From assembly GCF_004376845.1 (NCBI RefSeq), contig NZ_SNUW01000004.1:248001-312000 (forward strand): a DNA stretch of 64,000 bases, written 5' to 3'. Positions 8,664 through 31,599 of this stretch are shown here, piece by piece (the first letter of the stretch is position 1; every line of letters begins with the position of its first letter). This stretch comes from Psychromonas algarum (GTDB lineage Bacteria; Pseudomonadota; Gammaproteobacteria; Enterobacterales; Psychromonadaceae). The translations under genes were made by a program, and so were the position numbers. The notes below the pieces were generated by a model. The model searched no databases and had not been told where the DNA came from. It was given only the letters and a program-made list of their open reading frames with translations.

Positions 8664-8667
8664 TGTA

Positions 8668-9241: not shown

Positions 9242-9271
9242 ATTATACCTGTAATATGACCTTCTTCACAA
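9242..9271 (-). promoter_or_regulatory. sigma70 promoter for the rplK operon
   Basis: On the minus strand TTGTGA (9266-9271) and a perfect TATAAT (9242-9247) are separated by 18 bp, followed by the GC-rich discriminator TCGCCGCCC. This is the expected architecture of a growth-rate-controlled ribosomal promoter. It lies about 145 bp upstream of rplK. Confidence 0.65.
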
Positions 9272-9354
9272 GGCTTTTTGGTGTTTTTTTGAACGAAAAT
9301 AATAATTCTGTTTAGGCGAGACTAATAAGTGTGAATTTTAAAAAAGAACTAATG

Positions 9355-9449
9355 AGAGCCTAGCTTTCAAACTACCTAACAATCAGCAGGATAAATCCTG
9401 CACCCCAAGATAACACCACAAAAACACTGGGCGTGGTTTTCAATCCACC
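9355..9449. repeat. Degenerate REP-like hairpin cluster between rplK and nusG
   Basis: Three imperfect palindromic units follow each other: CCTAGCTTTCAAACTACC, GCAGGATAAATCCTGC followed by ACCCC, and GGGCGTGGTTTTCAATCCACC. They match, with mutations, the alternating hairpins of the arrays at 59.5-61.3 kb. This is therefore a dispersed, decaying member of the same repeat family. The rest of the 454-bp rplK-nusG gap holds the rplK promoter and the nusG terminator. Confidence 0.7.
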
Positions 9450-9483
9450 TAAAAACAAATATAACTATTCAATCACTAAAAAC

Positions 9484-9517
9484 AAAAAAGCCAATAAGAA
9501 TCAACTTATTGGCTTTT
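9484..9517 (-). terminator. Rho-independent terminator after secE-nusG
   Basis: A perfect 13-bp inverted repeat (AAAAGCCAATAAG / CTTATTGGCTTTT, loop of 6) continues into a T-rich tract on the minus strand. It lies 33 bp past the nusG stop, so it ends the secE-nusG transcript before the rplK promoter. Confidence 0.85.
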
Positions 9518-9550
9518 GAATTCAACAATAGATTTTACCCTATTATTTCA

Positions 9551-10099
9551 TTAGTCTTTTTCAACTTGAGAAAACTCAAGTTCAACTGGTGTTGCACGAC
9601 CAAAGATAGAAACCGATACTTTCAAGCGACTTTTATCGTAATCAACTTCCTCAACTGTACCAGAGAAATCTGCAAATGGACCATCAGTAACGCGAACCAT
9701 TTCACCTGCTTCAAACAAGGTACGTGGACGTGGTGAATCATGAGAATCTTGTAAACGATTAAGAATATTATCTACTTCTTTTTGAGAGATAGGAGCAGGA
9801 CGTTCTGCTGTACCACCAATAAAGCCCATAACACGGTCGATACTTTTCACTAAATGCCAGCTATCATCATTCATCGCCATTTCAACTAAAACGTAACCTG
9901 GGAAGAACTTGCGTTCACTCTTACGTTTCTGACCGGCACGCATTTCAACCACTTCTTCAGTAGGAACTAAGATTTGCCCGAAGTGCTCTTCCATTTCGTT
10001 TAAACGAATATGCTCTACTAATGTTTTTTGAACACGCCCTTCATAACCAGAGAATGCTTGTACTACGTACCATCTCTTTTTTTGAACTTCTTCAGTCAT
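9551..10099 (-). CDS. nusG: Transcription termination/antitermination factor NusG
   Basis: NusG binds RNA polymerase through its NGN domain, suppresses pausing, and links it to Rho or ribosomal protein S10 through its KOW domain. The 182 residues match E. coli length. The NGN start ([18 protein letters not shown]) and the C-terminal KOW sequence ([22 protein letters not shown]) are both clear. It lies 9 bp after secE in the conserved secE-nusG pair. Confidence 0.98.
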
Positions 10100-10108
10100 A
10101 ATAAACCC

Positions 10109-10489
10109 TTAAATAGAGGTAGTGATAAACGAAACGATACGAACAAAAATGCCATCAAGACCCCATAGCACTAAACCAACAATTGTTGATACAGCTAAGA
10201 TGATTAATGTAGTTTGAACTGTTTCTTGGCGTGTTGGCCAAACAACTTTACGTACTTCAAGACGCGAGTCTTTAGCAAAACCAACAAATGTTTTACCTTT
10301 TTCAGTAAATGCAGCAGAAAGAAGTGCTAAAGCAGCTAAGAATAAAAGTATTGCCACACGTAATACAACATGCGTTTCTTCGCCGTAAATATAATTACCA
10401 ACAATAATTGCTGCTAATAAAAGAACGGTGATAGTCCATTTCAACCCATCAAGTGAGCTTTTGCTGTTTTCAGAATTTACTGTACTCAT
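10109..10489 (-). CDS. secE: Preprotein translocase subunit SecE
   Basis: SecE is the essential clamp-like membrane subunit of SecYEG. The 126-residue protein has three predicted membrane helices (about residues 17-35, 40-58 and 95-118), as in enterobacteria. The conserved amphipathic segment SRLEVRKVVWPTRQETVQTT precedes the last helix. It is unusual that no tuf or tRNA-Trp gene lies upstream; the capsule locus does instead. Confidence 0.97.
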   Translation of the reverse strand: MSTVNSENSKSSLDGLKWTITVLLLAAIIVGNYIYGEETHVVLRVAILLFLAALALLSAAFTEKGKTFVGFAKDSRLEVRKVVWPTRQETVQTTLIILAVSTIVGLVLWGLDGIFVRIVSFITTSI

Positions 10490-10516
10490 AACTCTTTGTA
10501 TCCACTGTTAAAATTA

Positions 10517-10545
10517 ATAATACCGTTCTTAGCATCAGTTGCTAA
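10517..10545 (-). promoter_or_regulatory. Possible promoter for secE-nusG
   Basis: Minus-strand TTAGCA and TATTAT are separated by exactly 17 bp and end about 30 bp before secE. The -35 match is weak, so this is a tentative call. Confidence 0.35.
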
Positions 10546-10855
10546 GAGGTAAAACAACCATCCATATTGATGATTGCTTAATAGATGACAGACTATTTTA
10601 CACTTGCTAAAAATCGTCACCTAGAAATAAAGCACGTCAGTATAAGGATTTTTCTGTCCTTTGTAACCTGATAATACGTAAAAAACTTGATTCTTATCCA
10701 TAAAGAGCGAATAAAATGAAAATCGATGAAAATAAGAATCAAAAACAACAATGTGATAATTTAAAAGAGCAGTAACTTACAAATTTTGCTTCGCATGCAG
10801 AAGTTGGAAAATACGACTTAGAAAGAACCACAAAAGCAGTTATTAATTTAAAGCG
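10546..10855. other. Gene-free spacer between the capsule locus and secE
   Basis: About 310 bp separate the end of the capsule locus from the secE promoter. Apart from the candidate terminator at 10680-10742, I see no gene or recognisable repeat. A 19-residue plus-strand frame at 10716 lies inside the terminator loop and is not credible as a gene. Confidence 0.5.
10680..10742 (-). terminator. Candidate terminator at the end of the capsule locus
   Basis: An 11-bp perfect inverted repeat (TTGATTCTTAT / ATAAGAATCAA) with a long loop of about 34 bases is followed on the minus strand by GTTTTTT. It lies about 115 bp past the last capsule gene and before the secE promoter. The long loop lowers confidence. 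Confidence 0.45.
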
Positions 10856-12826
10856 TTATTTTTTAATATCATTTTGTATCGCTAACTTTGCAACCTCATC
10901 AAAACATTTATCTACTTTTTGTTTTGATGAAGCTAATTTCTCATTCCAAGCTAAATCACCAATACCATCACTTGGTTCAAAACCTGTTGGCGTAGAGAGT
11001 AATATTTTGCGTATCAGTTCATGATCAAAATGCTTACAAGCATCATCTAATTTTTCTAATATATCGACATATTCATTCAATGGTAGATAAAACTCTTGGG
11101 CTGTCATGATCCTTTCATGAGCTGTTTTACCAACATCACCACCAATTAATAACTCTTCATATAATTTTTCACCAGGGCGCAAACCTGTAAATTTAATTTC
11201 AATGTCACCAAGTGGATTATCTTCACATTTAACGTCAAGTCCAGATAAGCGAATTAGATTCTTAGCTAAATCAATTATTTTAACTGAATCTCCCATATCA
11301 AGAATAAATACATCGCCCCCCTTCCCCATGGCCCCAGCCTGAATAACAAGTTGAGCGGCTTCAGGAATCGTCATGAAGAAACGAGTAATATCAGGGTGAG
11401 TAACCGTTAAAGGCCCCCCTTTTAAAATTTGCTTTTTAAATAATGGAATAACAGAGCCTGAAGAACCAAGTACATTACCGAAACGAACCATACAAAAGCG
11501 AGTTCCATTAACTTTTTCATGCTCTTGTTCGGCTAAGGCTTGCAACCCTAATTCAGCAAGCCTTTTAGTTGTGCCCATCACATTGGTTGGACGCACAGCT
11601 TTATCTGTCGAAATTAATACAAAAGACTCAACCTTACTTTCAATTGCAGCTTTAGCTGTAAAATAAGTACCAAAAACATTATTTTGAATACCTTCTGCAA
11701 CATTAAATTCAACTAAAGGTACATGTTTATAAGCTGCTGCATGATAAACAGTATTAACATTAAAAGTTGTCATCACCATAGTTAAACGATTGTAGTGTTG
11801 AACAGAGCCAAGCAGTGGCACTATTCTAATAGTCTTATTAGCTTCTGCTGCAAGTTGTGTTAATTCATTTTCAATTTTATATAAAGCAAACTCTGAACGC
11901 TCAAATAATATAATCGCTGAAGGATCCCCTTTAATAATTTGTCGGCATAATTCAGAACCAATTGACCCGCCAGCCCCAGTCACCAATACCACTTTATTTT
12001 TTATGTTAGCCTCAAGAAGTACTTGTTGTGCAGCAACTGGGTCTCGGCCTAGTAAATCATCAATTGGTACATCACCTAACTGATCAATACTTGCTTTACC
12101 TGAAACAATATCTTCCATGGAAGGCACACTAAGTACTTCCATGTGTAAATGAACTAAGGAATCAATAATTTCTTTACGGCGGGCTCTCGAAGCACTAGGC
12201 ACTGCAATAAATATTTTTTTAGCATCTGATTTTGTAATTAGGGAGGCGATATTGTCGGTATGATGAACAGATAGACCTTGTATAATCATTCCAATTAAGG
12301 TTGTGTCTGTATCAACAAACGCAACAACTCGATATTCCTCAGAAGATTTTAAAGATAAAGCTAGCTGTCGTCCTGCACCGCCAGCACCATAAATTAATAC
12401 ACTTTCTCTTCCTTTTTTATCGCCTTGAAAAACCAGCGCTCTCACCATTAATCGAGAACCTCCACAAAGAATAGCTAAAAAGGCAAAATAGATAATAGGA
12501 ACAGTACGAGGCAAAAATGATTGTAAATAATAGGATAAAAGAGCAAGTGCTAGTGCAGATAATAACGAGCCAATAAAAATAACAAATAAAGCATGGAAAG
12601 TAAGATAACGTAAGACAGCTCGATATAGACCCAGACGAATAAAAAAGACGAGAGTTAATACAATGGTGCCAACTAAAGTATAAATACTTTCGACATTCAT
12701 AAGCCATTCAAATTTCCCCAAGCGTACCCAGAAGGAAAAATAAAAGGCGAGACAGATAAATAAAGTATCAATAAACAAACTGATAATACGCTTGCTAGTA
12801 CGAGATAAATTCCAAATTATAACCAT
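10856..12826 (-). CDS. Membrane-anchored NDP-sugar 4,6-dehydratase (WbpM/FlaA1/PglF family)
   Basis: Proteins of this family convert UDP-GlcNAc to UDP-4-keto-6-deoxy sugars, the entry to QuiNAc, FucNAc or bacillosamine. I chose the ATG at 12826; the open frame extends to a GTG at 12895 that would add 23 residues. Four or five membrane helices occupy about residues 10-125. A first Rossmann segment (YGAGGAGRQLA, about 146) precedes the catalytic SDR domain (VTGAGGSIGSE, about 280). The active-site stretch STDKAVRPTNVMGTTKR lies near 407-423. It is the last gene of the locus. Together with the downstream-acting reductase and the small phosphoglycosyl transferase, it should supply the first sugar of the repeat unit. 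No strong ribosome site supports either start. Confidence 0.88.
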   Translation of the reverse strand: MVIIWNLSRTSKRIISLFIDTLFICLAFYFSFWVRLGKFEWLMNVESIYTLVGTIVLTLVFFIRLGLYRAVLRYLTFHALFVIFIGSLLSALALALLSYYLQSFLPRTVPIIYFAFLAILCGGSRLMVRALVFQGDKKGRESVLIYGAGGAGRQLALSLKSSEEYRVVAFVDTDTTLIGMIIQGLSVHHTDNIASLITKSDAKKIFIAVPSASRARRKEIIDSLVHLHMEVLSVPSMEDIVSGKASIDQLGDVPIDDLLGRDPVAAQQVLLEANIKNKVVLVTGAGGSIGSELCRQIIKGDPSAIILFERSEFALYKIENELTQLAAEANKTIRIVPLLGSVQHYNRLTMVMTTFNVNTVYHAAAYKHVPLVEFNVAEGIQNNVFGTYFTAKAAIESKVESFVLISTDKAVRPTNVMGTTKRLAELGLQALAEQEHEKVNGTRFCMVRFGNVLGSSGSVIPLFKKQILKGGPLTVTHPDITRFFMTIPEAAQLVIQAGAMGKGGDVFILDMGDSVKIIDLAKNLIRLSGLDVKCEDNPLGDIEIKFTGLRPGEKLYEELLIGGDVGKTAHERIMTAQEFYLPLNEYVDILEKLDDACKHFDHELIRKILLSTPTGFEPSDGIGDLAWNEKLASSKQKVDKCFDEVAKLAIQNDIKK

Positions 12827-17161: not shown

Positions 17162-18328
17162 TTAATCACTACCAAATAAATCACGTGTGTACACTTTTTC
17201 AGCAACATCACTTAACTCATCCGCCATACGATTAGACACAATAACATCAACATCTTGCTTAAAGGACTTTAGATCTTTATAAACTTTAGAGTGGAAAAAT
17301 TCATCTTCTTCATACACAGGTTCATAGATAACAACTTTAATGCCTTTTGCTTTAATGCGCTTCATAATGCCTTGAATGCTCGACGCTCTGAAATTATCAG
17401 ATCCAGACTTCATGATTAAACGGTATATACCAACCACTTTAGGTTGCTTAGCAATAATAGAGTCTGCTACAAAATCTTTACGTGTTGTATTCGCATCAAC
17501 GATGGCACCAATTAGATTGTTTGGCACATTAGCGTAATTAGCACGTAGCTGTTTAGTGTCCTTAGGTAAGCAATATCCACCATAACCAAATGAAGGATTA
17601 TTGTAATGATCGCCAATACGAGGGTCTAAACCAACACCTTCAATAATTTGACGCGCATTTAAGTCATGCGTTTCGGCATAGCTGTCTAATTCATTAAAGT
17701 AGGCCACTCGCAATGCAAGGTAGGTATTAGAAAACAGTTTAACCGCTTCCGCTTCCGTTGAATCAGTAAACAGCACATCGATATTTTCTTTGATTGCACC
17801 TTGAACCAGCAAACTCGCAAAAACTTCCGCTCGCTCACTTTGCTCACCAACAATAATGCGAGAAGGATGTAAGTTATCGTATAAAGCACGCCCTTCACGT
17901 AAAAACTCAGGTGAGAACAAAATATTATCACAGGCAAACTTAGCTTTGATTTCTTTGGTATACCCCACCGGTACAGTTGATTTAATAATCATCACCGCAT
18001 TGGGATTAATAGCCATAACATCTTTAATGACCGCTTCAACTGATGAGGTATTAAAGTAATTGGTTTCTGCATCGTAATCGGTTGGTGTTGCAATCACTAC
18101 GTAATCAGCATTTTGATAAGCTGATTGTTTATCTAAGGTAGCTGTAAAGTTGAGTGTTTTATTCGCTAAAAAATCTTCAATTTCCACATCAACAATAGGT
18201 GATTTTTTATTATTCAATAACGCTATTTTTTCTTCAATAATATCAACAGCAATCACTTCATTGTGCTGCGCTAATAGCATTGCATTTGACAGGCCAACAT
18301 AGCCTGTCCCTGCGATAGCAATTTTCAT
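17162..18328 (-). CDS. ugd: UDP-glucose 6-dehydrogenase
   Basis: Ugd oxidises UDP-glucose to UDP-glucuronate with two NAD+. The 388-residue protein begins with the dinucleotide fold [16 protein letters not shown]. It carries [10 protein letters not shown] near residue 140 and the catalytic-cysteine motif [10 protein letters not shown] near 245-255. It follows the uronate epimerase by 10 bp, so the pair should provide UDP-GlcA and UDP-GalA to the capsule unit. Its length is normal for the short bacterial form. Confidence 0.95.
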
Positions 18329-18338
18329 TCTTTTATCC

Positions 18339-19343
18339 TTAAACCTTATAAAATTCTTTATACCAACTCACTAATTTAGCCACACCTTCAGGTACGCCAA
18401 CTTGCGGTTTATAACCAATCACATCAAATAAATCTTTAGTATCGGCATAAGTCTGATAAACATCCCCAGGCTGCATTCCTCGGAAATTTTTATTCGCTTT
18501 AACATCTAATTCAGATTCAATGGTTTCAATAAATTCCATTAAATTAATGGGACTACCATGACCAATATTATAAACACGGTATGGAGCAGAACTTGACGCC
18601 GGTGTGCCAGCTTCAACGGTCCATTCATCATCTCGAGTAGGGATCACATCAGCAATGCGAATAACACCTTCCACGATATCATCAATGTAAGTAAAATCAC
18701 GCCACATATCACCATTGTTATTAATGTCGATAGTCTCGCCAGCTAATATCTTTTTAGTAAAAATATAAGGCGCCATATCAGGACGCCCCCATGGACCATA
18801 TACAGTAAAAAAACGTAACCCTGTTGTTGGAATATTGTAAAGATGCGAATACGAATGTGCCATTAATTCATTGGATTTTTTAGTGGCAGCATACAATGAA
18901 ATAGGATGATCAACGGAATCTGAAGTAGAGAATGGCACTTTGTTATTCAGACCATATACAGAGCTTGAAGAAGCATAAACCAAGTGTTTCACTTTTGTAT
19001 TGCGGCACCCTTCTAAAATATTAAGGTGACCTACTAGGTTTGAATCAGCATACGCCATTGGGTTTTCAATAGAATAACGAACGCCAGCTTGAGCAGCTAA
19101 ATGAATAACGCGATCAAACTGCTGCTCTTTGAAAAATGCAGAAACCGCTTCTCTATCCGCTAAATCCATTAGGACAAACTGAAACAGCTCATGCTCAATA
19201 CGTTTTAAACGTGCATCTTTTAAATTAATATCGTAATAATCATTGATATTATCAAGCCCAACAACTTGGTGTCCTTGTGCACACAATCTTTCGACAACGC
19301 ATGAGCCAATAAACCCAGCGACACCTGTTACTAAATATTTCAT
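18339..19343 (-). CDS. UDP-glucuronate 4-epimerase-like NAD-dependent epimerase
   Basis: The 334-residue extended SDR starts [20 protein letters not shown]. It has the catalytic ASSSSVYG and YAATKK (YxxxK), and the [13 protein letters not shown] loop typical of the UDP-GlcA to UDP-GalA epimerases found beside ugd in capsule loci. The end of the gene abuts ugd. Immediately upstream lies the relic of an rmlD gene, so the native upstream context has been replaced. Confidence 0.9.
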
Positions 19344-19439: not shown

Positions 19440-19605
19440 TTAAATTAATTTATCCATAATGGCCGATAGCTGCTTACGCCAATGTTGGGTTTGAATCCCT
19501 GAAATAGCTTCGGCACTTGATTTATCAATCACTGAAAATCAGGACGCTTAGCAGGAGTTGGAATAGGCAAAACAGGAACAGCTTCTTTTAATAGCCCTTT
19601 TTCAA
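19440..19605 (-). pseudogene. 3' relic of rmlD/rfbD (dTDP-4-dehydrorhamnose reductase)
   Basis: This segment matches the last ~55 codons of the intact rmlD at 40074-40958, including the EKGLL-AVPVLPIPTPAKRP stretch and the SAEAISGIQTQHWRKQLS tail. One base has been lost after the CGTCCT codons, so the tail is out of frame. The N-terminal 80% is missing and is replaced by a hipA fragment. It is evidence of an earlier rml operon at this place. Confidence 0.85.
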
Positions 19606-19807
19606 TCGCTAATCGTAACCCCCCTTCAGGCATATTCATCTGAAAAAAAGGATGTAAGCCTTCATATGAGTATGTTTCTAATCGAATAGGCATAGTAAGC
19701 GACAATGCATGCTTTGCGTTTAACTCATAGGCGTAGTGATGGATCTCATTTTTTTTCTCAAGTCTCCCTACTCTGCTTTTGTGATTATAGACATCAACAT
19801 TAGCCAT
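19529..19807 (-). pseudogene. Chimeric ORF: HipA N-terminal fragment fused to RmlD C-terminal fragment
   Basis: The first ~68 residues look like the N-terminal subdomain of a HipA-family kinase toxin: VYNHKSRVGRLEKKNEI, then ALSLTMPIRLE and FFQMNMPEGGLRLAIE. They continue in frame into an RmlD sequence (EKGLLKEAVPVLPIPTPAKRP). The switch falls at a shared ATTGAAAAAGG. The HipA kinase core, ATP-binding site and catalytic Asp are absent, so toxin activity is lost. It overlaps hipB by 8 bp, as in a genuine hipBA operon. Confidence 0.8.
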
Positions 19808-20048
19808 TATTAATCTCTTTTAATTGATCTAACGTCGGCAAACCGGTGTCTGCCACTGTTAAAGATTTATTGAATAAATTAAGGATACGCTCGACTTTTC
19901 TCAAGCCAACGTCATCATAGTCATTGCGCTCAATTTTACCAACAGTCGTTCTATTCAGTCCCGCATAATCAGCAAGTAACTGTTGGCTCCATTTCCTTTT
20001 TTTTCTTTCGTACAGAATAATTTCTGAAATTTTAAATAATGAATTCAT
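19800..20048 (-). CDS. HipB-like XRE-family antitoxin/regulator
   Basis: The 82-residue protein carries a Cro/C1-type helix-turn-helix at about residues 17-60 (WSQQLLADYAGLNRTTVGKIER). HipB proteins bind operators upstream of hipBA and neutralise HipA. Here the partner toxin is truncated, so this is an orphan antitoxin. It stays intact and could still repress its own promoter in the AT-rich region above 20049. The family call rests on its overlap with the hipA fragment. Confidence 0.75.
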   Translation of the reverse strand: MNSLFKISEIILYERKKRKWSQQLLADYAGLNRTTVGKIERNDYDDVGLRKVERILNLFNKSLTVADTGLPTLDQLKEINNG

Positions 20049-21216: not shown

Positions 21217-21705
21217 ATGAAGGTAAAACGACTGGCAATGAATCAAGTTAAATTACGCCATCATCCAACGCTGAGCCAGATAACGTGCCACGATCATTTT
21301 GCACTCACTTCGCCAGTTGATATTCAGAGGTTGCCTTTACAAGTCGCACAAACGCTATTGGATTTATCACCGGTTCTCGCCTGCAAAAATCCAGATGAGC
21401 CTATTGACTGGCAACTTAATTCGAATCCTACGCTTGAATTACTCAAGCACCACCCCGCGCAGCATAAGCTCTATATCAGTATTCTCTATATGCCAGCTGA
21501 AGTCGTCGATGACACGCTCATCGGGGCATTACTCTTTGCCCCTGCACTTAATTATCGTGAAAATAATAAGCTACTGAGTAACCTTAGCCATCGCGTCCAA
21601 CAAACAAAATCACGACTTACTCAGCCCCCTTCTAAAAAGCAATTAGCACAATGGGCAAATGTAAAACCCTCTGCAATTAGGCATATTAAGGACATTAATG
21701 GGTAA
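21217..21705 (+). CDS. Small protein of unknown function, first gene of a recombinase operon
   Basis: I do not recognise this 162-residue protein. It has no signal peptide or membrane helix. The C-terminal ~25 residues (SKKQLAQWANVKPSAIRHIK) resemble a helix-turn-helix, so DNA binding is possible. An AGGAG site 11 bp before the ATG supports the start. It overlaps the next gene by 8 bp, which implies translational coupling with the two tyrosine-recombinase-like proteins. Small companion proteins are known in other multi-recombinase elements such as Tn554 (TnpC); a comparable accessory role is inferred, not shown. Confidence 0.7.
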   Translation: MKVKRLAMNQVKLRHHPTLSQITCHDHFALTSPVDIQRLPLQVAQTLLDLSPVLACKNPDEPIDWQLNSNPTLELLKHHPAQHKLYISILYMPAEVVDDTLIGALLFAPALNYRENNKLLSNLSHRVQQTKSRLTQPPSKKQLAQWANVKPSAIRHIKDING

Positions 21706-23269
21706 AATAGCGGCGATAAAAACAAAGAACAGAAGTCATAATGCGGGCGGTGTGATGCCAAATACTCATCAAACGGCAGCCTCATTAGCAGTTGCCTTTG
21801 AAAAGTTCACTAAATCAAACATGCTATCACACGATAGCCACCGCGCATTATTGTTGTTTCTCTATCTCTGGTTAACGGATCAACTCGATAACATCACCAG
21901 CCTAAAAGACATTCCAGATCTACTTCGTGTGAGTACATCTGATAAATGTGAAGCGCACTGCCTACGCAACTTTAAAGACGGTAATATATCTTGGACTGAG
22001 TACGCACAGCCCTACCACACCCAGCAAGGCATTCTTTACCTTTGGCAACCTCTACCAACTGCACTACAAGTTTTATTTCAACCACTTGTCTCATCATTAA
22101 GTTACCAAACACCCATGCTCAATCAGCAAGAAAAGAAACGCTTTTATAGCGAATTACAAAAGCGCTGGAAAACACCGCTGTTACTCCGCCGTTGTCACCG
22201 TAATAAACGCGATCTGTTCTTTCGCTATTTCCCCTACTGTATTCAGGTGGATGCAGGCTTATCTTCTCTCGCTAAAATGGTCTTACTGGGTCCTGAACGA
22301 CTGCATCATAGAAATGCGACCGCCTATCAAGCTGAGGAAACAGACCGGTTGCGAAAAAAAATATTTTTAGCGCAAAATCGTTACTTAGAAAGGATCATCA
22401 TAGCGATTAAACAACTTGATATTAGTAAGCACTTTACTGCGTGCATACTTGAGCAATCTAAAAACCTCTCAGAGCCGACAATCAACATAGCAAACTACCT
22501 TAAAAAGAACGGCATCATCACGGTTTACCAACTTAATACACAAAATGGTAGTAAACAGTATGAAGCGATCCCATCAATGCGCATCGGTAGTCAACGTAGC
22601 CTTGCAGAGCATGACGTGGTGGCCTTTTTTAACGCGCTGCACGATAAAGTAGAAGCACACAATTTTGCAAAAAACATGACGCTTGAGCAGCACCGCCTTT
22701 ACTACAACTTGCGAACGATTCAGCTGGCTTTTTTGTTTATTACCTTAACGGGCGTCCGGCCGACCCATGCCATTACTATTGAACGCCGTCGCTGCTTTGC
22801 AGGCGAGAAAGTGTGTGTATTTGATAAAGGACAATGGCGCCCTGTCATACTCTGTAGCTACCTTAAAACACAAATCAGTGAGTACCAACAGTTACAAAAG
22901 GCGCTCACTATGCAGTTCCCACACCACCAACCAAATCAAGCAATGTGGTACTTAATTGACGAGCAAGGTGAGCAACAGCTGCTCACTGCACGTATTTTAC
23001 GCACAAAGATGTATTCGTTATGGCCGGGTGTTGTGCCTTATCAGTTACGTCACTTTTTTGCCCAATGCGCGCTCACGAGCCTACCGCCTAACCACCTTGC
23101 TACACAGCAAATTGATCGGCTAATGGGGCATAGCAATTTAGGCGAGCACCTCGGCAGTGATGACCAATTCCCCCTCTCGCTTATGCCATTACATCATTAT
23201 TTGGAGCATCTTGTTAAGCGATTAGGTTTGCTGACATTGCGCAGGCAGGGAGTGGTTGTCGATGAATAA
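21698..23269 (+). CDS. Tyrosine-recombinase-like protein (523 aa), second gene of the operon
   Basis: The C-terminal third has the order of motifs of a tyrosine recombinase. TGVRPTHAI (box I Arg, near residue 352) is followed by PYQLRHFFAQ (box II Arg-His, near 448) and RLMGHSN (near 475). A candidate nucleophile is the Tyr in HHYLEHL (near 500). The usual first His of HxLRH is Tyr, so catalysis may be altered. The N-terminal ~330 residues are not recognisable. The start ATG overlaps the previous stop. The DNA appears richer in G+C than the surrounding capsule genes. It could be an active recombinase or a fold-only partner. Confidence 0.65.
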   Translation: MGKIAAIKTKNRSHNAGGVMPNTHQTAASLAVAFEKFTKSNMLSHDSHRALLLFLYLWLTDQLDNITSLKDIPDLLRVSTSDKCEAHCLRNFKDGNISWTEYAQPYHTQQGILYLWQPLPTALQVLFQPLVSSLSYQTPMLNQQEKKRFYSELQKRWKTPLLLRRCHRNKRDLFFRYFPYCIQVDAGLSSLAKMVLLGPERLHHRNATAYQAEETDRLRKKIFLAQNRYLERIIIAIKQLDISKHFTACILEQSKNLSEPTINIANYLKKNGIITVYQLNTQNGSKQYEAIPSMRIGSQRSLAEHDVVAFFNALHDKVEAHNFAKNMTLEQHRLYYNLRTIQLAFLFITLTGVRPTHAITIERRRCFAGEKVCVFDKGQWRPVILCSYLKTQISEYQQLQKALTMQFPHHQPNQAMWYLIDEQGEQQLLTARILRTKMYSLWPGVVPYQLRHFFAQCALTSLPPNHLATQQIDRLMGHSNLGEHLGSDDQFPLSLMPLHHYLEHLVKRLGLLTLRRQGVVVDE

Positions 23270-26192
23270 TATTTTAAAGTTAGCACCCAATACGATACTG
23301 ACCTACCTTGAATACAGTCACAATAACAGTGAAGTACCATTACCTTATAAGCAACACGCATCCGCCACTGAAGATATTCACTGGGTACTCTCGCGCTGGC
23401 CAGATGAAAGCGTACCGCTGCGTACATTAACCGATGAACATTACCTACAACTCAGCCAAGCGATTAATCAAGTCCCCACGGGAAAACGAAAGCACTACCG
23501 GCAAGCACTGAACGCTATCCTTATCTACCTCTATGATATTGCCCAGTGGCAACTCCCTAGGCGTACTGAAAAGCTGTTTGTTGATCGTGACTTAGTTTGG
23601 TTTACCCGCTTAAGTGAACAAGCTGCACTTGCTTACGATCTTTGGCAAGGCTATCAAGAAGAGCAAGAAAACGCCCTAAGAAACCATGTTCATCCTAGCG
23701 CAGCACAGGCGGCATTGACGATTGCTCAGGAGGTTGCACCGCTGTCACTCAACCACCTTACTGCGATCTTAAATAATCCAGTCTGTCTTGAGCGTACAGG
23801 TCAGCAGACACAACTCAAGGTGTTTCATTATCAGCCACCCTCAACAACCTCTCAAGAAACAGAGGCTACTTTTACGCGCTATCATTTAACACTGCACTGT
23901 TATTGTTTTTTAGCGAAGTATTACCAAACAAAGTCGCCTTCACTCACGCAGCGTCAGCTACTCAATCAATTGAATGAGCACATATCCACAGAGCCTTATC
24001 ACTTAGGGCCATACAGCGCATCTCAATGGCATACTTTATTTCAATCACTGTGGCACTATCGTGATAATGTGCCACCGACCTTACTCAAGGATATCTCACA
24101 GCCCGAGCGCCATGTTGATTTTGATGTAACGCCCCCATCGCCCAAACAGCAAAAGAACCTGCTTGCAGCACTCTATCAGCAGGATTGGTTAACAGATAAA
24201 AAACGCAATGCAATCATGGTGAGAAGTAAGCCTCGTTGGTCACAACGCCAATTAATCAAGCAATGGTTTGATAAGGGCAATATCTCCAGCAGTGTTGTAC
24301 CCGATTTACATCCTGAGAACGTACTTGAACATTATCTTTTCCTCTATTGTCGTGAGTTGATTTTATACGGCGGTGTACACCGAGAGTCACTCTCTAAAGC
24401 AACCATCACAAAATACTGCAATATTGAGGTGTGCTTTAACGATGAGCCACTCTCCTATGAAGTGGCTATCGACCAAGAACAACTGCAACAATGGGCTAAA
24501 CGGGTCTATGAGAAACAAGAAAGTGACACGCACAAGGGGTTAGTGCATTACTTTTTCCGCTTTCTGACCACACAAGCCCTTACTGACCACCTTGATATCG
24601 ATGCGTTTGAAAGCCCTAGTCTCGCCCCGACGGTCGATCCTTTTCGTATTCCTTTAACGGCGTTGCATGAAATAGTAGATGCCTTATTGACCCATTCAGA
24701 GGGCACATTACTGCAGCGGTTATATTGTGCGGTGAGTGCGATTATTGCTTACTTTGCGATGTTGCGTCGCGGGGAAGTCTTAAGACTGCGCATCAAAGAT
24801 ATTATCCCTTTATCTGACAAATCAACTGCTTTTCGCATAACTGTTATGAAGACAATAGAGGGCGACACGAAAAGCCACAAGGCACGTACACTTGATACTG
24901 TATTACCAGAATCAATGGCAATATTAATACATATTGCTATTCAACTTAAGAAAGGGTTTCACGATAATGTGCCGTTAATTGGTTTTGATAAAGAGAAAAT
25001 GAGTTCGCGCCAACTTAATTATCTGTTACCAGTCACTAAAGCGATAAAAGCACACTGTGGTAAAAAAGCCCGCTTTCATCATCTGCGAAAAAGTGGTATT
25101 CACTTATCTCAGCAACAAATGTTGCAGCTCGCCTATCAGCACCCGACACATGACTTAGGGGCATACGCTGACTTAAAACCAATGCTTACACCCGACATAG
25201 TTAGAAAAAGGTTTAACTACTGGCTTGAAGGGCGTGATGAGCAGGAGATTAACGACAATCTTTTGTTTGATGAATTCACGCGTCAAGTTGGACATCAACA
25301 TTATGCCACGACACGCTGGTCATACCTACATGGTACGCAGTGGCTGTTTCCCTACCTGCGCCCCGAACAAGCAAGCTCTGCACAACAAACTTTTTCGCAT
25401 GCACAGTTACGGTTTTTACTTGGCTTGGCCTCGGATTCTAATGATTTATCACGGCAGCTGAGTTTGTTGAGTCAACACTACAACACTCTCTCAACACGCG
25501 ATAAGCAAAAAAACCCAGTCCTGCTTAGCGAGCAAGCATTACGCACTTATTTATGGCCCGCTGAAACTAATCATAGCCCAGAGTCAGTCGCTGAAAAGGC
25601 CAATGAAAACCCTAAATATTATTATCAACAATGGGGGAAATCAGCCACTAAACAGCACGCGAGCTTTATTGACCAGCTCTTTATTAATATGCGCATGAAA
25701 AACTATTTTGATTTTAATGTATTAAGTCAGGTTTGGGCAAGCTCTGGTAAACATAGCCCTCGCTCGCTCGGCAAAACACAGCGTACCGCTCTCTGTGGGC
25801 TTGGCACCATTACGTTGCTGTCGGGAAAGGGAGAGGTTATAGCACCTAACCATAGAGACCAGAAAGCTAGCCTAATCGCATCAGGTCAGTTACCTCGCTC
25901 TTCACTGCAAATACAGGTAGCGAGTAACGCCCGTAATGCCGGTTATTTTGAAGCGGTCTTTCGTCAACCTGAATGGCAATGGTTAGCCTGCTCTTTTACT
26001 TTAACGGTGAACCGTAAAACAAAAGTAGCCCGATTACTGAGCTTAGTGAACACGCGTTACGCTAACGGTAAAGAGAAGGTCACCGTCATTAAACAACACG
26101 AGGGAGCAAGCCATCTCACTATTACGCTTACCCCCAAGTTTTCAGTGCCAGAGCTTGTACTCCAACAAGCTTTACAAACGTTAACATCATAG
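23262..26192 (+). CDS. Very large tyrosine-recombinase-like protein (976 aa), third gene of the operon
   Basis: I chose the ATG at 23262; a TTG six bases upstream is in frame. A recombinase-type catalytic domain sits in the middle. AMLRRGEVLRLRIKDI (box I Arg) lies near residue 500, RFHHLRKSG (HxLRK) near 608, and QVGHQHYATTRWSYLHG near 676-690, giving GH plus the candidate nucleophilic Tyr. About 490 residues precede it and 290 follow, both unrecognised. At nearly 1000 residues it is more than twice the size of a normal phage integrase. It overlaps its upstream neighbour by 8 bp. A recombinase for a multi-subunit element is the best reading. Confidence 0.65.
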   Translation: MNNILKLAPNTILTYLEYSHNNSEVPLPYKQHASATEDIHWVLSRWPDESVPLRTLTDEHYLQLSQAINQVPTGKRKHYRQALNAILIYLYDIAQWQLPRRTEKLFVDRDLVWFTRLSEQAALAYDLWQGYQEEQENALRNHVHPSAAQAALTIAQEVAPLSLNHLTAILNNPVCLERTGQQTQLKVFHYQPPSTTSQETEATFTRYHLTLHCYCFLAKYYQTKSPSLTQRQLLNQLNEHISTEPYHLGPYSASQWHTLFQSLWHYRDNVPPTLLKDISQPERHVDFDVTPPSPKQQKNLLAALYQQDWLTDKKRNAIMVRSKPRWSQRQLIKQWFDKGNISSSVVPDLHPENVLEHYLFLYCRELILYGGVHRESLSKATITKYCNIEVCFNDEPLSYEVAIDQEQLQQWAKRVYEKQESDTHKGLVHYFFRFLTTQALTDHLDIDAFESPSLAPTVDPFRIPLTALHEIVDALLTHSEGTLLQRLYCAVSAIIAYFAMLRRGEVLRLRIKDIIPLSDKSTAFRITVMKTIEGDTKSHKARTLDTVLPESMAILIHIAIQLKKGFHDNVPLIGFDKEKMSSRQLNYLLPVTKAIKAHCGKKARFHHLRKSGIHLSQQQMLQLAYQHPTHDLGAYADLKPMLTPDIVRKRFNYWLEGRDEQEINDNLLFDEFTRQVGHQHYATTRWSYLHGTQWLFPYLRPEQASSAQQTFSHAQLRFLLGLASDSNDLSRQLSLLSQHYNTLSTRDKQKNPVLLSEQALRTYLWPAETNHSPESVAEKANENPKYYYQQWGKSATKQHASFIDQLFINMRMKNYFDFNVLSQVWASSGKHSPRSLGKTQRTALCGLGTITLLSGKGEVIAPNHRDQKASLIASGQLPRSSLQIQVASNARNAGYFEAVFRQPEWQWLACSFTLTVNRKTKVARLLSLVNTRYANGKEKVTVIKQHEGASHLTITLTPKFSVPELVLQQALQTLTS

Positions 26193-26203
26193 GAGAACAG
26201 CCA

Positions 26204-27454
26204 ATGCATGAATTACTTATTATTGAAGCGCAACATATCGAAAAAATAATTAAAATCAGTAGCAAACTTGATAAAAAAGAATCCGATTGTTGCATCAGCT
26301 TTATTATTGACCCAAAGAAAGAAACTTTGGAGTTAATTGGTGGCCATGCACCTCAATACCTACACTTAACTCTCCCTTTAGCGGAAAAGCATCAATTAAA
26401 GAAAAGACGCTTTACCGTTGATGGTGAATATTTCAGTCAGATCCCTACCTATGCAGGCAAAGGAAATTCGATGCTCCTAAAGCTCATCGACGCTCAACAT
26501 TCACCTAACTTGATGGGGATAACCACCGATAAAAATGAGTTTTTAAGCTGTGAATTAGCACCTTTTTACAAAGCACATAAGGCGTTTATTCAAGCATCAG
26601 CAGAATATGTGTATGAAGATGTTAAAGCGCTTGAGGTATCAAGATTACTGCATGAAGTTACCCCACATGCCCCTGTTCAGTTTGTTGCTTTTGATAAAGA
26701 GAATAAAGAGATGCGCGTGCAAAGTGATAACAATCTGGAGCTGCATGACATTCCCAGTGATGTACCAATACCTACCTCTATGGTATTGACGCAAGCAGCC
26801 GCAGATGAGCTTCAAACGCTATGTGAAAAAATCGGCGATAATAATATTCAAATCGCTCAACACGATGAAAACATCACCTTTAAGACCGGTGATATGACCA
26901 TTACGCACTCACTAGCAGGTGTTGATGAATTTTATAAAAACGAGCCTAAAGTTTATAACCAGTTAGGTTATATGATCATGGATATTAATCATTTAAAAGA
27001 TCGTGTGAAACATTTCCATAATCAATACAGCAAAATCAAACAAGCAAACCAAAGCCATCTGTTGATAACGCCAGAGCAGCTATATTTTCTAAACTTAGTT
27101 AATCCGTATAAATTTGATATCCCTATCGCAACAGATGCGATTTCATTTACTGACGATCAACTATATATGTTGCATCTAAGGAGTATTAAATCAGTTAACA
27201 TTAAAGATGTAACGACTTCGGACAAAATAAAAATCGCCATACTTAAGGAAGCAGGACAAGAAAGCGAGTATAAGCTTGGTTTTTATAAAGATATAACCCA
27301 CAAATACTCCTATGCAAGTATTGCAATTGAGCCTGCACCCGATGATATGGCCGATGCACAAGCCGTGATACAAAATGCGAAAGAGAGTGAGGGAGGCGAA
27401 TCACAGGGAGAGTCTGAGGGGCCACAAGGTGATTTGTTTGGCTTTGATGTGTAG
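26204..27454 (+). CDS. Putative DnaN-like sliding-clamp homologue with C-terminal clamp-binding motif
   Basis: The 416-residue protein is the fourth gene, 11 bp after the recombinase, with a clear AGGAG site. By eye it follows the three-domain pattern of the polymerase III beta clamp. ETLELIGG and RRFTVDGEYFSQIP fall in the first third. LTQAAADELQTL, DENITFKTGDMTITHSL and a following DEFY fall in the second, and ISFTDDQLYMLHLRSIKS in the last. After residue ~375 comes a Gly/Glu/Ser-rich linker ending in QGDLFGFDV. QxDLF is the consensus of proteins that bind the beta clamp. It could be an element-borne clamp or a clamp-interacting recombination factor. No database comparison was made, so the fold is an inference. 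Confidence 0.5.
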   Translation: MHELLIIEAQHIEKIIKISSKLDKKESDCCISFIIDPKKETLELIGGHAPQYLHLTLPLAEKHQLKKRRFTVDGEYFSQIPTYAGKGNSMLLKLIDAQHSPNLMGITTDKNEFLSCELAPFYKAHKAFIQASAEYVYEDVKALEVSRLLHEVTPHAPVQFVAFDKENKEMRVQSDNNLELHDIPSDVPIPTSMVLTQAAADELQTLCEKIGDNNIQIAQHDENITFKTGDMTITHSLAGVDEFYKNEPKVYNQLGYMIMDINHLKDRVKHFHNQYSKIKQANQSHLLITPEQLYFLNLVNPYKFDIPIATDAISFTDDQLYMLHLRSIKSVNIKDVTTSDKIKIAILKEAGQESEYKLGFYKDITHKYSYASIAIEPAPDDMADAQAVIQNAKESEGGESQGESEGPQGDLFGFDV

Positions 27455-27750: not shown

Positions 27751-27781
27751 GTAGGGATAGATCTATTTGATGGAGAGTACT

Positions 27782-28948
27782 ATGGCTCATATCCGCGTGC
27801 GCCCGAACGGGCGTATTCAATTTGACTTACATCTTTATGGTCAACGTTTTCGTGAAGGCACGAAAATGACGGCTACCCCTAAAAACCTAAATCATGCAAA
27901 AGCACAGCTTAAAAAAATGAATGCAGAGATTGATTTAGGTACCTTTCAATACCGTGACTATTTTCCAGATAGTAAAAAAACAGGTAAGTTTGAATCGCTA
28001 CAACGCACTAAACACCCTGACCGTTGTTATCCTTTTTTTGATAGCTTTGCCGATGAATGGTTTGACCGCCAAAAATCAAAGTGGAAAAACAGTTATAAAA
28101 ATACCGTACGCTTGAACATTGAAGGTTATTTAAAACCTATCTTTGGCAATACGTTGATTAATGAAGTGACCTTGGCACAGGTTGAATATTACCGCCAAGA
28201 TTTGATGGAGCAGTTGAAAAGTGATGGTAGCCGTAAACTATCTAACCGCCGTATTAACAATATTTTTTGGCCGTTGATAGCCATGATAAGCTTAGCGAGT
28301 GATGAGTATAAGTTTGACTATCCACTACGCCGTTATAAAGCCCTTAAAGAAGAGAGTGCGGATTCACACCCGATGACAATAGAGGAAGTTGAGCGTTTTT
28401 TAGCGGTCGTACCTAGTGAATGGCATGATTACTTTGTATTACGTTTTTGGACAGGCATGCGTAGCTGTGAAGTGCATGGGCTTTATGTTGAACATCTCGA
28501 TTTTGACCACCGCTTGATTCGTATCAGGCAGAATTATGTTAACGGGGAAATTTGTGATGTGAAAACACCAAAATCGAGACGTGACCTTAAGATGTGTGAC
28601 ACGCTTTATGAAGTATTAAGTCGCGTGATGACAAGTAAAACAGATGACTCCCCTTTTGTATTTACTACCCCTAAAGGCAAACCTATTGATACGCACTATA
28701 TTAGTCAAAAGCTGTGGTATCCAACACTTAAAAAAGCAGGGCTAAAACGTCGTCGTCCTTATGAAACACGCCATACAGCGGCAGTGCTACATATCGCGGC
28801 ACATGAAAACCCTTTATATATCTCACAGATGCTTGGGCACAGTGATACGCGTTTATTGTTTGACGTATATGCACCTTATGTTGCAAACGCTTCAAGACGA
28901 GATGGCAGTGCATTTTCGAAGATGATGATGGAGGGAAATTTGCAATAA
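27782..28948 (+). CDS. Phage-type tyrosine integrase with Arm DNA-binding domain
   Basis: The ATG at 27782 follows GGAGAG; upstream in-frame codons add only five residues. The N-terminal ~60 residues (MAHIRVRPNGRIQFDLHLYG) look like the Arm domain of phage and island integrases. A SAM-like core-binding domain follows at about 80-180. The catalytic residues are present: TGMRSCE (Arg, near 224), VKTPKSRR (Lys loop), ETRHTAA (Arg-His, near 327), LGHSD (His) and DVYAPY (Tyr). At 388 residues it is a normal, apparently complete integrase. It is separate from the four-gene operon and may have brought in the island or part of it. Confidence 0.88.
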   Translation: MAHIRVRPNGRIQFDLHLYGQRFREGTKMTATPKNLNHAKAQLKKMNAEIDLGTFQYRDYFPDSKKTGKFESLQRTKHPDRCYPFFDSFADEWFDRQKSKWKNSYKNTVRLNIEGYLKPIFGNTLINEVTLAQVEYYRQDLMEQLKSDGSRKLSNRRINNIFWPLIAMISLASDEYKFDYPLRRYKALKEESADSHPMTIEEVERFLAVVPSEWHDYFVLRFWTGMRSCEVHGLYVEHLDFDHRLIRIRQNYVNGEICDVKTPKSRRDLKMCDTLYEVLSRVMTSKTDDSPFVFTTPKGKPIDTHYISQKLWYPTLKKAGLKRRRPYETRHTAAVLHIAAHENPLYISQMLGHSDTRLLFDVYAPYVANASRRDGSAFSKMMMEGNLQ

Positions 28949-28986
28949 GTAATAAAGCAAACAGAGTAAAAATATGATACCTATAT

Positions 28987-29013
28987 CTGTCACTATTAAT
29001 TTAATAGTGACAG
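28987..29013. promoter_or_regulatory. 27-bp perfect palindrome upstream of fic (candidate operator)
   Basis: CTGTCACTATTAA, one central T, and TTAATAGTGACAG form a perfect palindrome. It lies 70 bp before the reconstructed fic start and 38 bp after the integrase stop. A partial copy (GTGTCACTAT) follows near 29050. There is no T-run. The Fic protein has a winged-helix-like N terminus, so an autoregulatory operator is plausible; a terminator for the integrase is the alternative. Confidence 0.5.
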
Positions 29014-29145
29014 ACATAGTGCCAAATAGACTTAATGGTGCCATAATAGTGTCACTATCAATCTGACAAAAGTGCCTTCGCCATGCCTAATAGCTTTAAA
29101 ATACAACAAAGTATATTAACTTCCCATGTGCCATTGTCGCTATCT

Positions 29146-30375
29146 ACACGGCAAGATCATTATAAATTGAACTTTTTCTCCAAGTAGCGATCAGATCACC
29201 ATATACTATCAATTAGACCTTTGGTGACATTAATGAGCGCTACTTTTTTGAAACATTTTGACTCTATTTCCGATCCACGTATCGATCGCTGTAAAAAGCA
29301 CAATCTACTCGACATTCTTCTCCTCTCAATTACAGCTGTCATGTCAGGCTCTGAAGGATGGGAGGATATTGAAAACTTTGGCCATATAAAACTGGATTGG
29401 TTACGTCAATATCGTGAATTTGAAGCAGGTATCCCCCGGCATGACACTATTGCACGAGTTATCTCGCGTTTAAAACCGAGTGAAATAGAGGAGGCCTTTC
29501 AATCGTGGATATCTAGCCTTATAGAAAAAACAGGCAGCGATGTTATCGCCATTGACGGCAAAACAGCTCGTCGCTCATTTACCACAAAAGGCCGAAAAAA
29601 TGCATTGCACACCGTCAGTGCTTGGAGTTGCCAGCATCAATTGGTGTTAGGCCAAAGTGCGGTGGATGCAAAAACAAATGAAATCACAGCGATACCTGAG
29701 TTGCTCTCACTTCTTGATATTGAAAACAGCATTATCACTATCGATGCAATGGGTTGCCAGAAGAAAATAGCCGAGCAAATTATTAAACAAAAAGCGGATT
29801 ATATCCTCGCGCTTAAAGGCAATCATTCTGGTATGCAAGCGGAGCTAGAAGCTTGGTGGCATAAGACTCAGCGAGAAGGATTCTCAGAGCAAAATTATAC
29901 CGAGCATACAGAAATAGACAGTGGTCACGGACGTATTGAAACAAGAAAATGTCAGCATTTGATGGTTGATAAGCAGTGGCTAGGCAAAGCCTACCGTTGG
30001 TCAGGCCTTAAAAGCATCATTAAAATAAGCTCAATAGTGCACCATAAATCAACAGGCAAGAATACGAGTGAAACACGTTGGTATATAGCGTCATTAGATT
30101 TGAATGCAGAGCAATCACTACATGCAGTGCGAAGTCACTGGCAAGTGGAAAGTATGCATTGGGTGTTGGATATGACATTTAGAGAAGATGAATCACGTAT
30201 ACGTAAAGGGTGTGGCGCATTAGCGTTTAACGTGATGCGAAAGATAGCCATGGCATTGTTTAAGCAAGACGGTACAAAGTCAGCCAGTATAGCGGCAAAA
30301 AAGAAAATGGCAGGGCTAGATGATGAGTATCGCTCAACCCTGCTAGAATCAGGGATTAAAATGCGCTAGCCGTGT
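29146..30375 (+). mobile_element. ISAs1-family insertion sequence with 8-bp target duplication (copy 1)
   Basis: The element is 1230 bp with imperfect terminal inverted repeats (ACACGGCAAGATCATT left; ACACGGCTAGCGCATT as the complement of the right end). It is flanked on both sides by CGCTATCT (29138-29145 and 30376-30383). ISAs1 elements usually make 8-10 bp duplications. The perfect duplication and intact transposase indicate a recent, unrearranged insertion into fic. Confidence 0.9.
29233..30369 (+). CDS. ISAs1-family transposase
   Basis: The 378-residue DDE transposase starts MSATFLKHFDSISDPR, the usual ISAs1 N terminus. It carries DVIAIDGKTARRSF (first Asp), IITIDAMGCQKKIAEQII (second Asp) and HWQVESMHWVLDMTFREDESR (Glu region). 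The frame can be extended four codons upstream to a TTG. Length and motifs are complete, so it is probably functional. It is only distantly similar to the other ISAs1-family transposase at 33.3-34.4 kb, so they represent different elements. Confidence 0.92.
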   Translation: MSATFLKHFDSISDPRIDRCKKHNLLDILLLSITAVMSGSEGWEDIENFGHIKLDWLRQYREFEAGIPRHDTIARVISRLKPSEIEEAFQSWISSLIEKTGSDVIAIDGKTARRSFTTKGRKNALHTVSAWSCQHQLVLGQSAVDAKTNEITAIPELLSLLDIENSIITIDAMGCQKKIAEQIIKQKADYILALKGNHSGMQAELEAWWHKTQREGFSEQNYTEHTEIDSGHGRIETRKCQHLMVDKQWLGKAYRWSGLKSIIKISSIVHHKSTGKNTSETRWYIASLDLNAEQSLHAVRSHWQVESMHWVLDMTFREDESRIRKGCGALAFNVMRKIAMALFKQDGTKSASIAAKKKMAGLDDEYRSTLLESGIKMR

Positions 30376-31236
30376 CGCTATCTAAATTATTAACACTCCA
30401 TCCTAGTATAAGCAGGCGTACGGTTCAGCGTAGCTTGAGTAAATTAATCTGCAATGACACCATTATTGCAATTGGTGCTGGCCGTTCAAGGAAATATATA
30501 GCGGCTAGCTCACAACAAGATTCAATAACTACAACACAAGATAATAATGTTGACGAAACCATTGCCGATAAATTTCCCGCATATGTCCCGTTATCTGCCG
30601 ACAGCAAGGATATTTTAAATTATATTGAGCAACCGTTAGAGGCTCGAACACCGGTAGGTTATCAGCGTTCACTGATTGATGACTACGAACCTAATGTAAG
30701 TTTTTACTTATCCGAACCAATACGCAGACAGCTTGCCCGAATGGGTAACACAGGAAAAACATCACAGCCTGCAGGCACTTATGGAAGAGATATATTAAGC
30801 CGATTGCTCATCGATCTGTCTTGGGCATCAAGCCATTTAGAAGGTAATAGCTATAGTCGACTTGATACTATTGAGCTCATAGAACATGGTAAAGCAGCGG
30901 CCGGAAAAGCAAACATTGAAACCCAGATGATCCTAAATCACAAAACAGCGATTGAATTGCTAGTCGATAACCCCGAATCTATCGGCTTTAATCGTTATAC
31001 GATTTTAAATTTACATAGCATATTATCTGAAAACTTATTACCAAACCCATTTGATGAGGGACGAATTCGCCAACACCAGGTCGATATAGGAAAAAGTGTA
31101 TTTAGGCCACTTTCCGGTGATGTGTTGATTGCCAAATTACTCGACTTGTTGTTAAGTAAGGCAGATTTAATCGCAGATCCATTTGAACAATCATTTTTTA
31201 TGATGGTACATATTCCCTATCTACAACCCTTAATAA

Positions 31237-31599
31237 AATGCCGAGTCCAGCAATATTATTAATAGACTTAGTGCCATTAAAATGTGCAGCTAAGGTGCTG
31301 TAGATATTATTTTTTGGGGTGAAGTTTAATGTAACATCAATCTTGTTTTTTTTATAAATTCGATAAAAATAAAAAAAAGTTTTAATATCTTTAACTGGAT
31401 TAGCACCTCCTTGATCAATATTAATATCAATAAATTCACAACCCAATTCAGATAGTTTTATTGAATATTCATCTTCAGGGACAATAGCTATAACTTGGTA
31501 TCCCTGATCGATTAAAGCAAGAATGGTGTTCTTTCTAAAATTATAGAGATACCAGCTTGTGTTAGAAGTAATTGCTATACAAAACATATTAATTTTCAT
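31237..31599 (-). pseudogene. 5' fragment of a glycosyltransferase (GT4-like), 3' part lost
   Basis: The minus-strand frame starts MKINMFCIAITSNTSWYLYN and encodes the N-terminal Rossmann half of a WbpH/PglA-like glycosyltransferase up to KSINNIAGLG. Downstream of 31237 the sequence becomes the opposite strand of fic, and a stop follows 13 codons later. The nucleotide-sugar-binding C-terminal half is absent from the window. The gene was therefore cut by the right junction of the mobile island. It follows the asparagine-synthase-like gene in the capsule operon direction. Confidence 0.8.

Follow-up and report, generated by a model that had tools for sequence, protein, structure and literature searches.

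What an operon that combines recombinase-like proteins with a clamp-like protein is for is the question raised by a locus of Psychromonas algarum, situated in a stretch of 64,000 nucleotides (contig NZ_SNUW01000004.1, positions 248,001 to 312,000; hereafter the window). An earlier note on this DNA had described four tightly spaced plus-strand genes, namely a helix-turn-helix-like gene, two oversized tyrosine-recombinase-like genes and a clamp-like gene, and had proposed that they form the core of a new type of integrative element. The coordinates it gave are exact: genes 1 to 3 overlap successively by 8 and 8 base pairs (bp), and a gap of 11 bp separates genes 3 and 4. A fifth gene, likewise on the plus strand and 312 bp beyond gene 4, had been overlooked. 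Our reading is that the operon and gene 5 together constitute a recombination module of five components and, with it, the core of a so far undescribed integrative element with several recombinases, which occurs in Psychromonas and related genera, mostly at polysaccharide (O-antigen or capsule) operons. We give this reading roughly even odds (a probability of about 0.5). The co-conserved recombinase module of the original proposal is retained in it, whereas gene 2 looks dead and gene 5 has been added.

The catalytic residues of gene 3 were studied in a 12-row alignment (A1), in which identity to the window protein is 31-42% outside the genus. R502, K537, H606-x-x-R609, G677-H678 and Y688 occur in order and are invariant. 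The AlphaFold model of the protein (predicted local distance difference test, pLDDT, 76.1; predicted template modelling score, pTM, 0.64) shows a central recombinase domain with long extensions on either side. With this model Foldseek retrieved Cre and XerA, 27 PDB chains at E <= 0.001 with Cre as the best (E 5.4e-5), and PHROGs returned an integrase family (E 8.5e-6). Judged by its complete catalytic R-K-H-R-H-Y set and by the predicted recombinase fold, gene 3 is a tyrosine recombinase. Its length of 976 residues is counted from an ATG; an alternative TTG at 23256 would give 978.

The distribution of gene 3 was determined in 394 genomes of the order. It was found in 13 of them, belonging to 3 of 115 genera, and this patchiness suggests horizontal movement. 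In all 13 genomes gene 3 has gene 2 as its immediate upstream neighbour and gene 4 as its immediate downstream neighbour; gene 3 itself is in two pieces in genomes G266 and G301. Homologues of the operon genes therefore do co-occur elsewhere, a point on which the earlier note had made its proposal depend. The protein distances of genes 2, 3 and 4 correlate with one another (rho 0.69-0.87, p 0.0005; 10 of the 13 genomes). Outside the order the matches to gene 3 were partial and weak, in 3 of 368 further genomes of a class draw and 6 of 298 further genomes of a phylum draw (369 and 299 genomes with the window's own genome counted in), and no ORF (open reading frame) listed in nine neighbourhoods of such matches matched the profiles of genes 1, 2 or 4. 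Gene 3 had no phage matches and gene 4 no plasmid matches; decayed pieces of genes 2 and 3 were present on the sole plasmid record matched, the small plasmid pSA70-4 of Shewanella putrefaciens (CP078041.1, locus L018). The ratio of nonsynonymous to synonymous substitution rates was 0.05-0.32 against P. marina (genes 2-4 and the integrase gene 5; gene 1 left out) and 0.06-0.25 against G110 (all five genes). All five genes are under purifying selection, gene 1 as judged against G110 only.

Tyrosine-recombinase motifs had been attributed to gene 2 as well as to gene 3. For gene 2 this holds in part. R354, K377, R451 and G477-H478 are invariant in a 13-row alignment (A2); box II, however, reads Y-x-x-R, not H-x-x-R, and no conserved tyrosine is present in these rows at the usual distance after GH. 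The nearest tyrosine, 23 residues past GH, is replaced by F or A in 5 of the 13 rows. Fold matches of gene 2 were weak (XerA, E 0.062; a PHROGs phage integrase family, E 0.039), and comparison with gene 3 by hhalign was not significant (E 0.35). We read gene 2 as an inactive recombinase fold, which lacks the nucleophile tyrosine and looks catalytically dead. Gene 1 has no family match in Pfam, NCBIfam or PHROGs, which leaves its description as helix-turn-helix-like without support from that side; it is perhaps DNA-binding, and in 9 of the 13 genomes with gene 3 BLAST found a homologue in the corresponding position.

By its predicted structure, gene 4 has the three-domain sliding-clamp fold of the DnaN type. 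The AlphaFold model (pLDDT 83.5, pTM 0.73), in which a strand-helix-strands pattern is repeated, gave 485 PDB matches at E <= 0.001. The top match extends over 411 columns at 13% identity (E 6.6e-15; template modelling score 0.54 on the query and 0.61 on the target). Among the best 50 of the 485 rows, 49 are titled sliding clamp, DnaN or polymerase III beta, and the remaining one is a DNA replication regulation protein. In a viral structure library 118 models matched at E <= 0.001 (best 2.0e-13), and those with a functional name among the listed matches are mostly beta clamps or PCNA. The sequence does not repeat this result. Aligned by hhalign against 8 DnaN sequences, gene 4 gave E 0.13, which is not significant (gene 2 as a control gave E 0.74); NCBIfam yielded no match, and identity to the window protein outside the genus is 18-26% (A3). 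Thus, the clamp-like nature claimed for gene 4 was borne out by predicted structure and not by sequence, at which level homology to DnaN is unproven because of the hhalign value.

The tail of gene 4, a low-confidence part of the model, contains QGDLF, which resembles the clamp-binding motif defined as QxxL(x)F or QL(S/D)LF (PMC5371812; here and below, the cited papers are represented by excerpts of their text). Within the last 60 residues the strict motif occurs in 6 of 14 gene 4 homologues, with 0.39 expected and a maximum of 3 in 2000 shuffles; a relaxed form is found in the tails of 11 of the 14 (1.7 expected, maximum 6 in the shuffles). Some of the 14 rows are closely related, hence these counts are not of independent sequences. 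By eye, QGDLF was also seen in an insertion-sequence ORF near the module of locus L023 (1745-2089).

In 9 of the 13 genomes with gene 3, gene 5 follows immediately after gene 4. Pfam recognizes in it an Arm-DNA-bind_2, a central, a SAM-like and a Phage_integrase domain. Close copies, taken as those at E <= 1e-110 in the draw of 394 genomes from the same order, were present in 13 genomes: 12 of the 13 that have gene 3 versus 1 of the 381 others. The Fisher test of this co-occurrence gives 6.8e-21, a value that treats both draws as one set of genomes and is uncorrected for relatedness. The distances of gene 5 correlate with those of genes 2-4 (rho 0.38-0.50, p 0.001-0.011; 10 of the 13 genomes) and weakly with those of gene 1 (p 0.03; 8 genomes). 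G227, whose operon is divergent, is the sole gene-3 genome without a close gene 5. Conversely, the sole gene-5 genome without a gene-3 match, G209, has an adjoining divergent operon encoding 211, 868, 1017 and 433 residues, of which the 1017-residue protein matches the gene 3 profile (3.9e-10) and the 433-residue protein weakly that of gene 4 (0.062). As far as can be judged from these genome comparisons, gene 5 is part of the same set as the four-gene operon.

These data also bear on a simpler explanation, according to which gene 5 alone acts as an ordinary island integrase at a polysaccharide hotspot and the operon is its cargo, for example a DNA-maintenance system made of recombinase and clamp folds. 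Gene 5 is indeed a complete integrase by Pfam, it is present yet unlinked from the operon in three of the 13 genomes (G110, G253 and G301), and toxin-antitoxin genes crowd the same regions. One would not predict, however, that cargo goes along with this integrase in 12 of 13 genomes, even when unlinked from it; moreover, G209 still has an operon of four genes beside its gene 5, and the catalytic set of gene 3 is intact. We regard the cargo explanation as unlikely.

More divergent sets were encountered as well. The window's own genome carries a second four-gene set in L171 (G000:C35:178000-197999, 4404-11498), encoding 162, 776, 963 and 466 residues with hipA upstream. By hhalign its third protein matches gene 3 (E 9.5e-11), while its fourth has no match to gene 4 (E 0.52); the fourth gene of the divergent module in L106 reached E 0.013 against gene 4. 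The fourth genes of L106 and L171 are not claimed here as clamps. Sets with two large recombinases (about 193-202, 845 and 1038-1043 residues) were noted in L174 (4350-10566), L176 (4675-10918) and L178 (4256-10457), where no clamp-like fourth gene was recognized. L173 (5186-13836) and L175 (4678-12932) have single ORFs of 1819 and 1800 residues, respectively, with a recombinase match; each is followed by an ORF of 250-255 residues and has an Arm-type integrase near it.

The surroundings of the module were compared in 14 genomes (G209 and the 13 with gene 3). The operon or gene 5 is found in or beside a polysaccharide locus in all except G227. In G110 and G253 the polysaccharide link is made by gene 5 on another contig, and in G301 by gene 5 at about 12.5 kb from the operon. 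Family models supported the neighbours to which they were applied. In the window these are a KdsD-type isomerase and a UDP-glucose dehydrogenase, the latter being present in P. marina too. GlmM-type enzymes were identified in four genomes (G253, G301, G203 and G355), and further neighbours in G110 (phosphohexomutase), G209 (glycosyltransferase), G223 (epimerase) and G342 (polysaccharide-synthesis protein). The assignment of G266 comes from about 79% DNA similarity to the dehydrogenase and epimerase genes of the window, and the neighbours in G249 and G071 were named by eye. In all 12 genomes that allow a judgement, gene 5 and the closest polysaccharide gene beyond it have their 3' ends facing each other, separated by about 80 bp to 7 kb (counted by eye in the ORF listings); in G249 the contig breaks off there. 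Perfect stems of at least 9 bp follow gene 5 in 5 of 13 loci versus 9.4% of 128 control ORFs. Because of this enrichment, insertion beside a terminator is possible. HipA-like ORFs are present in the loci of 11 of the 14 genomes, a count made with seeds from these same loci and with no genome-wide background. Toxin-antitoxin genes, chiefly hipBA and most of them named by eye, crowd the modules in L031, L019, L025, L027 and L028.

A location at polysaccharide loci in 13 of 14 genomes would also suit a resident, non-mobile system for the rearrangement or exchange of surface-polysaccharide genes. The UDP-glucose dehydrogenase, which is linked to either side of the module in the window and in P. 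marina, fits such a system too. The patchy distribution over three genera nevertheless points to horizontal movement, and inversion sites were not seen, though no specific search for them was made. A resident system appears very improbable to us.

The right limit of similarity between related loci may mark the right end of the element. There, similarity to the window extends to 28937 in L020 and to 28959 in P. marina. In the closest pairs it stops at the 3' end of gene 5: 13 bp before the stop codon in L026/L027, 43 bp before it in L023/L024 and 11 bp after it in window/P. marina. On the left, similarity between L026 and L027 begins 39 bp before gene 1, at a point where hipB of L026 is cut short relative to a close copy in G203; for L023/L024 the corresponding distance is 418 bp. 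The contig L020 (G266:C81, 12,648 bp) begins and ends within gene 3, with a gap of about 67 bp between the two parts of the gene, and a UDP-glucose dehydrogenase, an epimerase and hipA stand between gene 5 and gene 1. Genes 2, 3 and 5 were found in the G266 assembly on this contig and in no other copy. The contig fits a circle or tandem unit; other explanations remain. An integron cassette array was considered and rejected: repeats of 60-90 bp in P. marina looked like attC, but an attC-like pattern had 0 matches in L031, and by our own reading these repeats resemble insertion-sequence ends and not attC. An attC-like stretch upstream of gene 1 was noticed by eye in L023 and L024.

Several results weigh against a mobile five-component module. 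Terminal or attachment repeats were not found at the settings used, and the ends are undefined. For the truncated hipB of L026, the missing part was found only in other genomes and not in the examined loci of that genome, and a DNA search with the gene 5 flank of G253 was uninformative, since it returned mainly glmM of the genus (112 of 117 genomes matched); by neither route was an empty site found. Neither a circle nor movement was observed, and the G266 assembly is 85% complete. In three of 13 genomes the operon is apart from gene 5, and there gene 5 is the part that sits in the polysaccharide locus. Gene 1 was not found by BLAST in 4 of the 13 gene-3 genomes (a small ORF occupies its position in G227 and G355, and none was seen there in G253 and G301), and its distances do not correlate significantly with those of genes 2-4 (p 0.07-0.18; 8 genomes). 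The second copy in G110 (L030) is partial, with a short gene 3 and gene 4 and no adjoining gene 2. To these points the hhalign value of gene 4 against DnaN has to be added.

Could the module belong to a system that has already been named? None of the operon proteins scored above the curated cut-offs in Pfam or NCBIfam, and the PADLOC matches were to unrelated families (E 0.013-0.023). The Gamma-Mobile-Trio (GMT; GmtX, GmtY and GmtZ) is a multi-gene recombinase module of gammaproteobacterial islands. Membership of it was rejected: the GmtY model (NCBIfam NF040693) matches none of the five proteins, and its one match in the window's own genome is below the cut-off and lies elsewhere. The strand-biased circularising elements (SE) have the gene order intA-tfp-intB-srap, end in imperfect inverted repeats of 13-19 bp and form strand-biased circles without leaving an empty site. 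The circles are proposed to result when a half-exchanged intermediate is replicated; they were no longer detected once intA, intB or srap had been deleted, only srap could be complemented and a tfp mutant was unobtainable (PMC10214605). In the GInt elements all four genes, ginABCD, are needed for excision and integration (PMC5385486). RIT elements consist of three consecutive recombinases and Tn554 of tnpA-tnpB-tnpC (PMC10214605); both resemble the present module in that several recombinases act together, and both are described in that excerpt without a clamp gene and without this gene order.

The module resembles the SE and GInt elements and might be a strongly diverged member of either group to which the clamp-fold protein was a late addition. 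The toolkit is the same, with two active tyrosine recombinases (one ordinary, one large), a protein with an inactive recombinase fold (Tfp in SE elements) and a small helper or auxiliary protein (PMC10214605, PMC5385486), and the hosts are similar, being Gammaproteobacteria. GInt elements have three recombinase-like genes, one of them inactive-looking, and a small fourth protein (PMC5385486). The order, however, differs. Here a small gene, the inactive fold, the large recombinase and the clamp fold are followed downstream by an Arm-domain integrase, in contrast to the SE order, and neither inverted nor direct terminal repeats were found at the settings used; for SE elements no clamp gene is mentioned in the excerpt (PMC10214605). 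Compared with GInt, order and sizes are different, two recombinase-like genes are in the operon and the third stands apart after the clamp-fold gene, the inactive member lacks the tyrosine whereas GinC lacks a catalytic arginine (PMC5385486), and gene 4 has a predicted clamp fold. A diverged SE or GInt element seems quite unlikely. The module is not GMT as judged by the family model and not SE, GInt, RIT or Tn554 as judged by gene order; it is set apart from SE and GInt by gene order and descriptions, not by protein homology. Of the three outcomes that the earlier note had named as refuting its proposal, none was fully borne out.

TnsE of Tn7 and insertion-sequence transposases bind the host clamp through a QxxL(x)F motif (PMC5371812). 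Those proteins bind the clamp of the host, whereas the present module encodes a predicted clamp-fold protein that itself carries such a motif. In the five-component module that we favour, the strand exchanges would be performed by genes 5 and 3, the integrase and the large recombinase, and the inactive recombinase fold of gene 2 would bind DNA in an architectural role, as would gene 1. Gene 4, with its clamp fold and clamp-binding-like tail, would tie the recombination intermediate to host replication. It might do so by recruiting the clamp and the polymerase of the host, which would then copy out a half-exchanged intermediate. Alternatively, it might aim insertion at replicating DNA, as is the case with TnsE of Tn7 (PMC5371812). 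Mobility, the division of labour, clamp loading and contact with host DnaN are the parts of this reading that we infer. Going further, we put forward tentatively that this is a mobile site-specific element with its own sliding clamp, whose strand exchange at O-antigen or capsule operons is directly coupled to replication, by copy-out or by fork-guided insertion. Such an element may transfer genes for surface polysaccharides and toxin-antitoxin systems from strain to strain.

The features of the locus are collected in Table 1.

Table 1. Features of the module and its immediate neighbours (positions in the window)
Feature	Position	Strand	Basis
Gene 1, small protein, perhaps DNA-binding	21217..21705	+	ORF of 162 residues; no family match
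Gene 2, recombinase-like, without nucleophile tyrosine	21698..23269	+	523 residues; adjoins gene 3 in 13/13 genomes; motifs; weak XerA and phage integrase matches
Gene 3, large tyrosine recombinase	23262..26192	+	976 residues; alignment, AlphaFold, Foldseek
Gene 3 catalytic stretch, R502 to Y688	24765..25325	+	Invariant residues, 12 rows
Gene 4, predicted DnaN-type sliding-clamp fold	26204..27454	+	416 residues; AlphaFold and Foldseek; hhalign against DnaN not significant
QGDLF, clamp-binding-like motif in gene 4 tail, residues 408-412	27425..27439	+	Motif count against expectation
Gene 5, Arm-domain tyrosine integrase	27767..28948	+	393 residues; Pfam domains; co-occurrence with gene 3
Right limit of similarity between related loci, possible right element end	28937..28959		Ends of similarity; not a proven terminus
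Inverted repeat just 3' of gene 5, terminator-like	28981..29019		Like feature after gene 5 in 5/13 loci
Neighbour: hipB-like helix-turn-helix gene and truncated hipA	19529..20048	-	Pfam HTH_3, Couple_hipA
Neighbour: UDP-glucose 6-dehydrogenase and nucleotide-sugar epimerase of polysaccharide locus	17162..19343	-	NCBIfam

Further observations were made in the window. A stretch with about 99% identity to P. marina is interrupted by an insertion with a DDE transposase (29147-30372; ORF 29221-30369); the P. marina matches on its two sides share 12 bp, as would be seen with a target duplication. The ORF at 30372-31262 appears by eye to be a piece of a Fic-type gene that is whole in P. marina; Pfam had no match for it. 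The sole RNA family above its gathering score in the window is Rfam P26 (6715-6781, minus strand, 41.2 bits).

The notable feature of this locus is the presence of a predicted clamp-fold protein in a recombinase module. No description of a tyrosine-recombinase element with a clamp gene was found in the literature searched, which comprised titles and abstract openings, with most subscription journals outside it. Multi-recombinase elements such as SE are thought to copy out via an unresolved replication step. A similar toolkit that includes a clamp-fold protein, with a tail like those that bind the clamp, would offer a concrete starting point for finding out how recombinases pass a half-exchanged intermediate on to the replication machinery. 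The location at O-antigen or capsule operons would tie the element to the surface changes that decide phage and host recognition.

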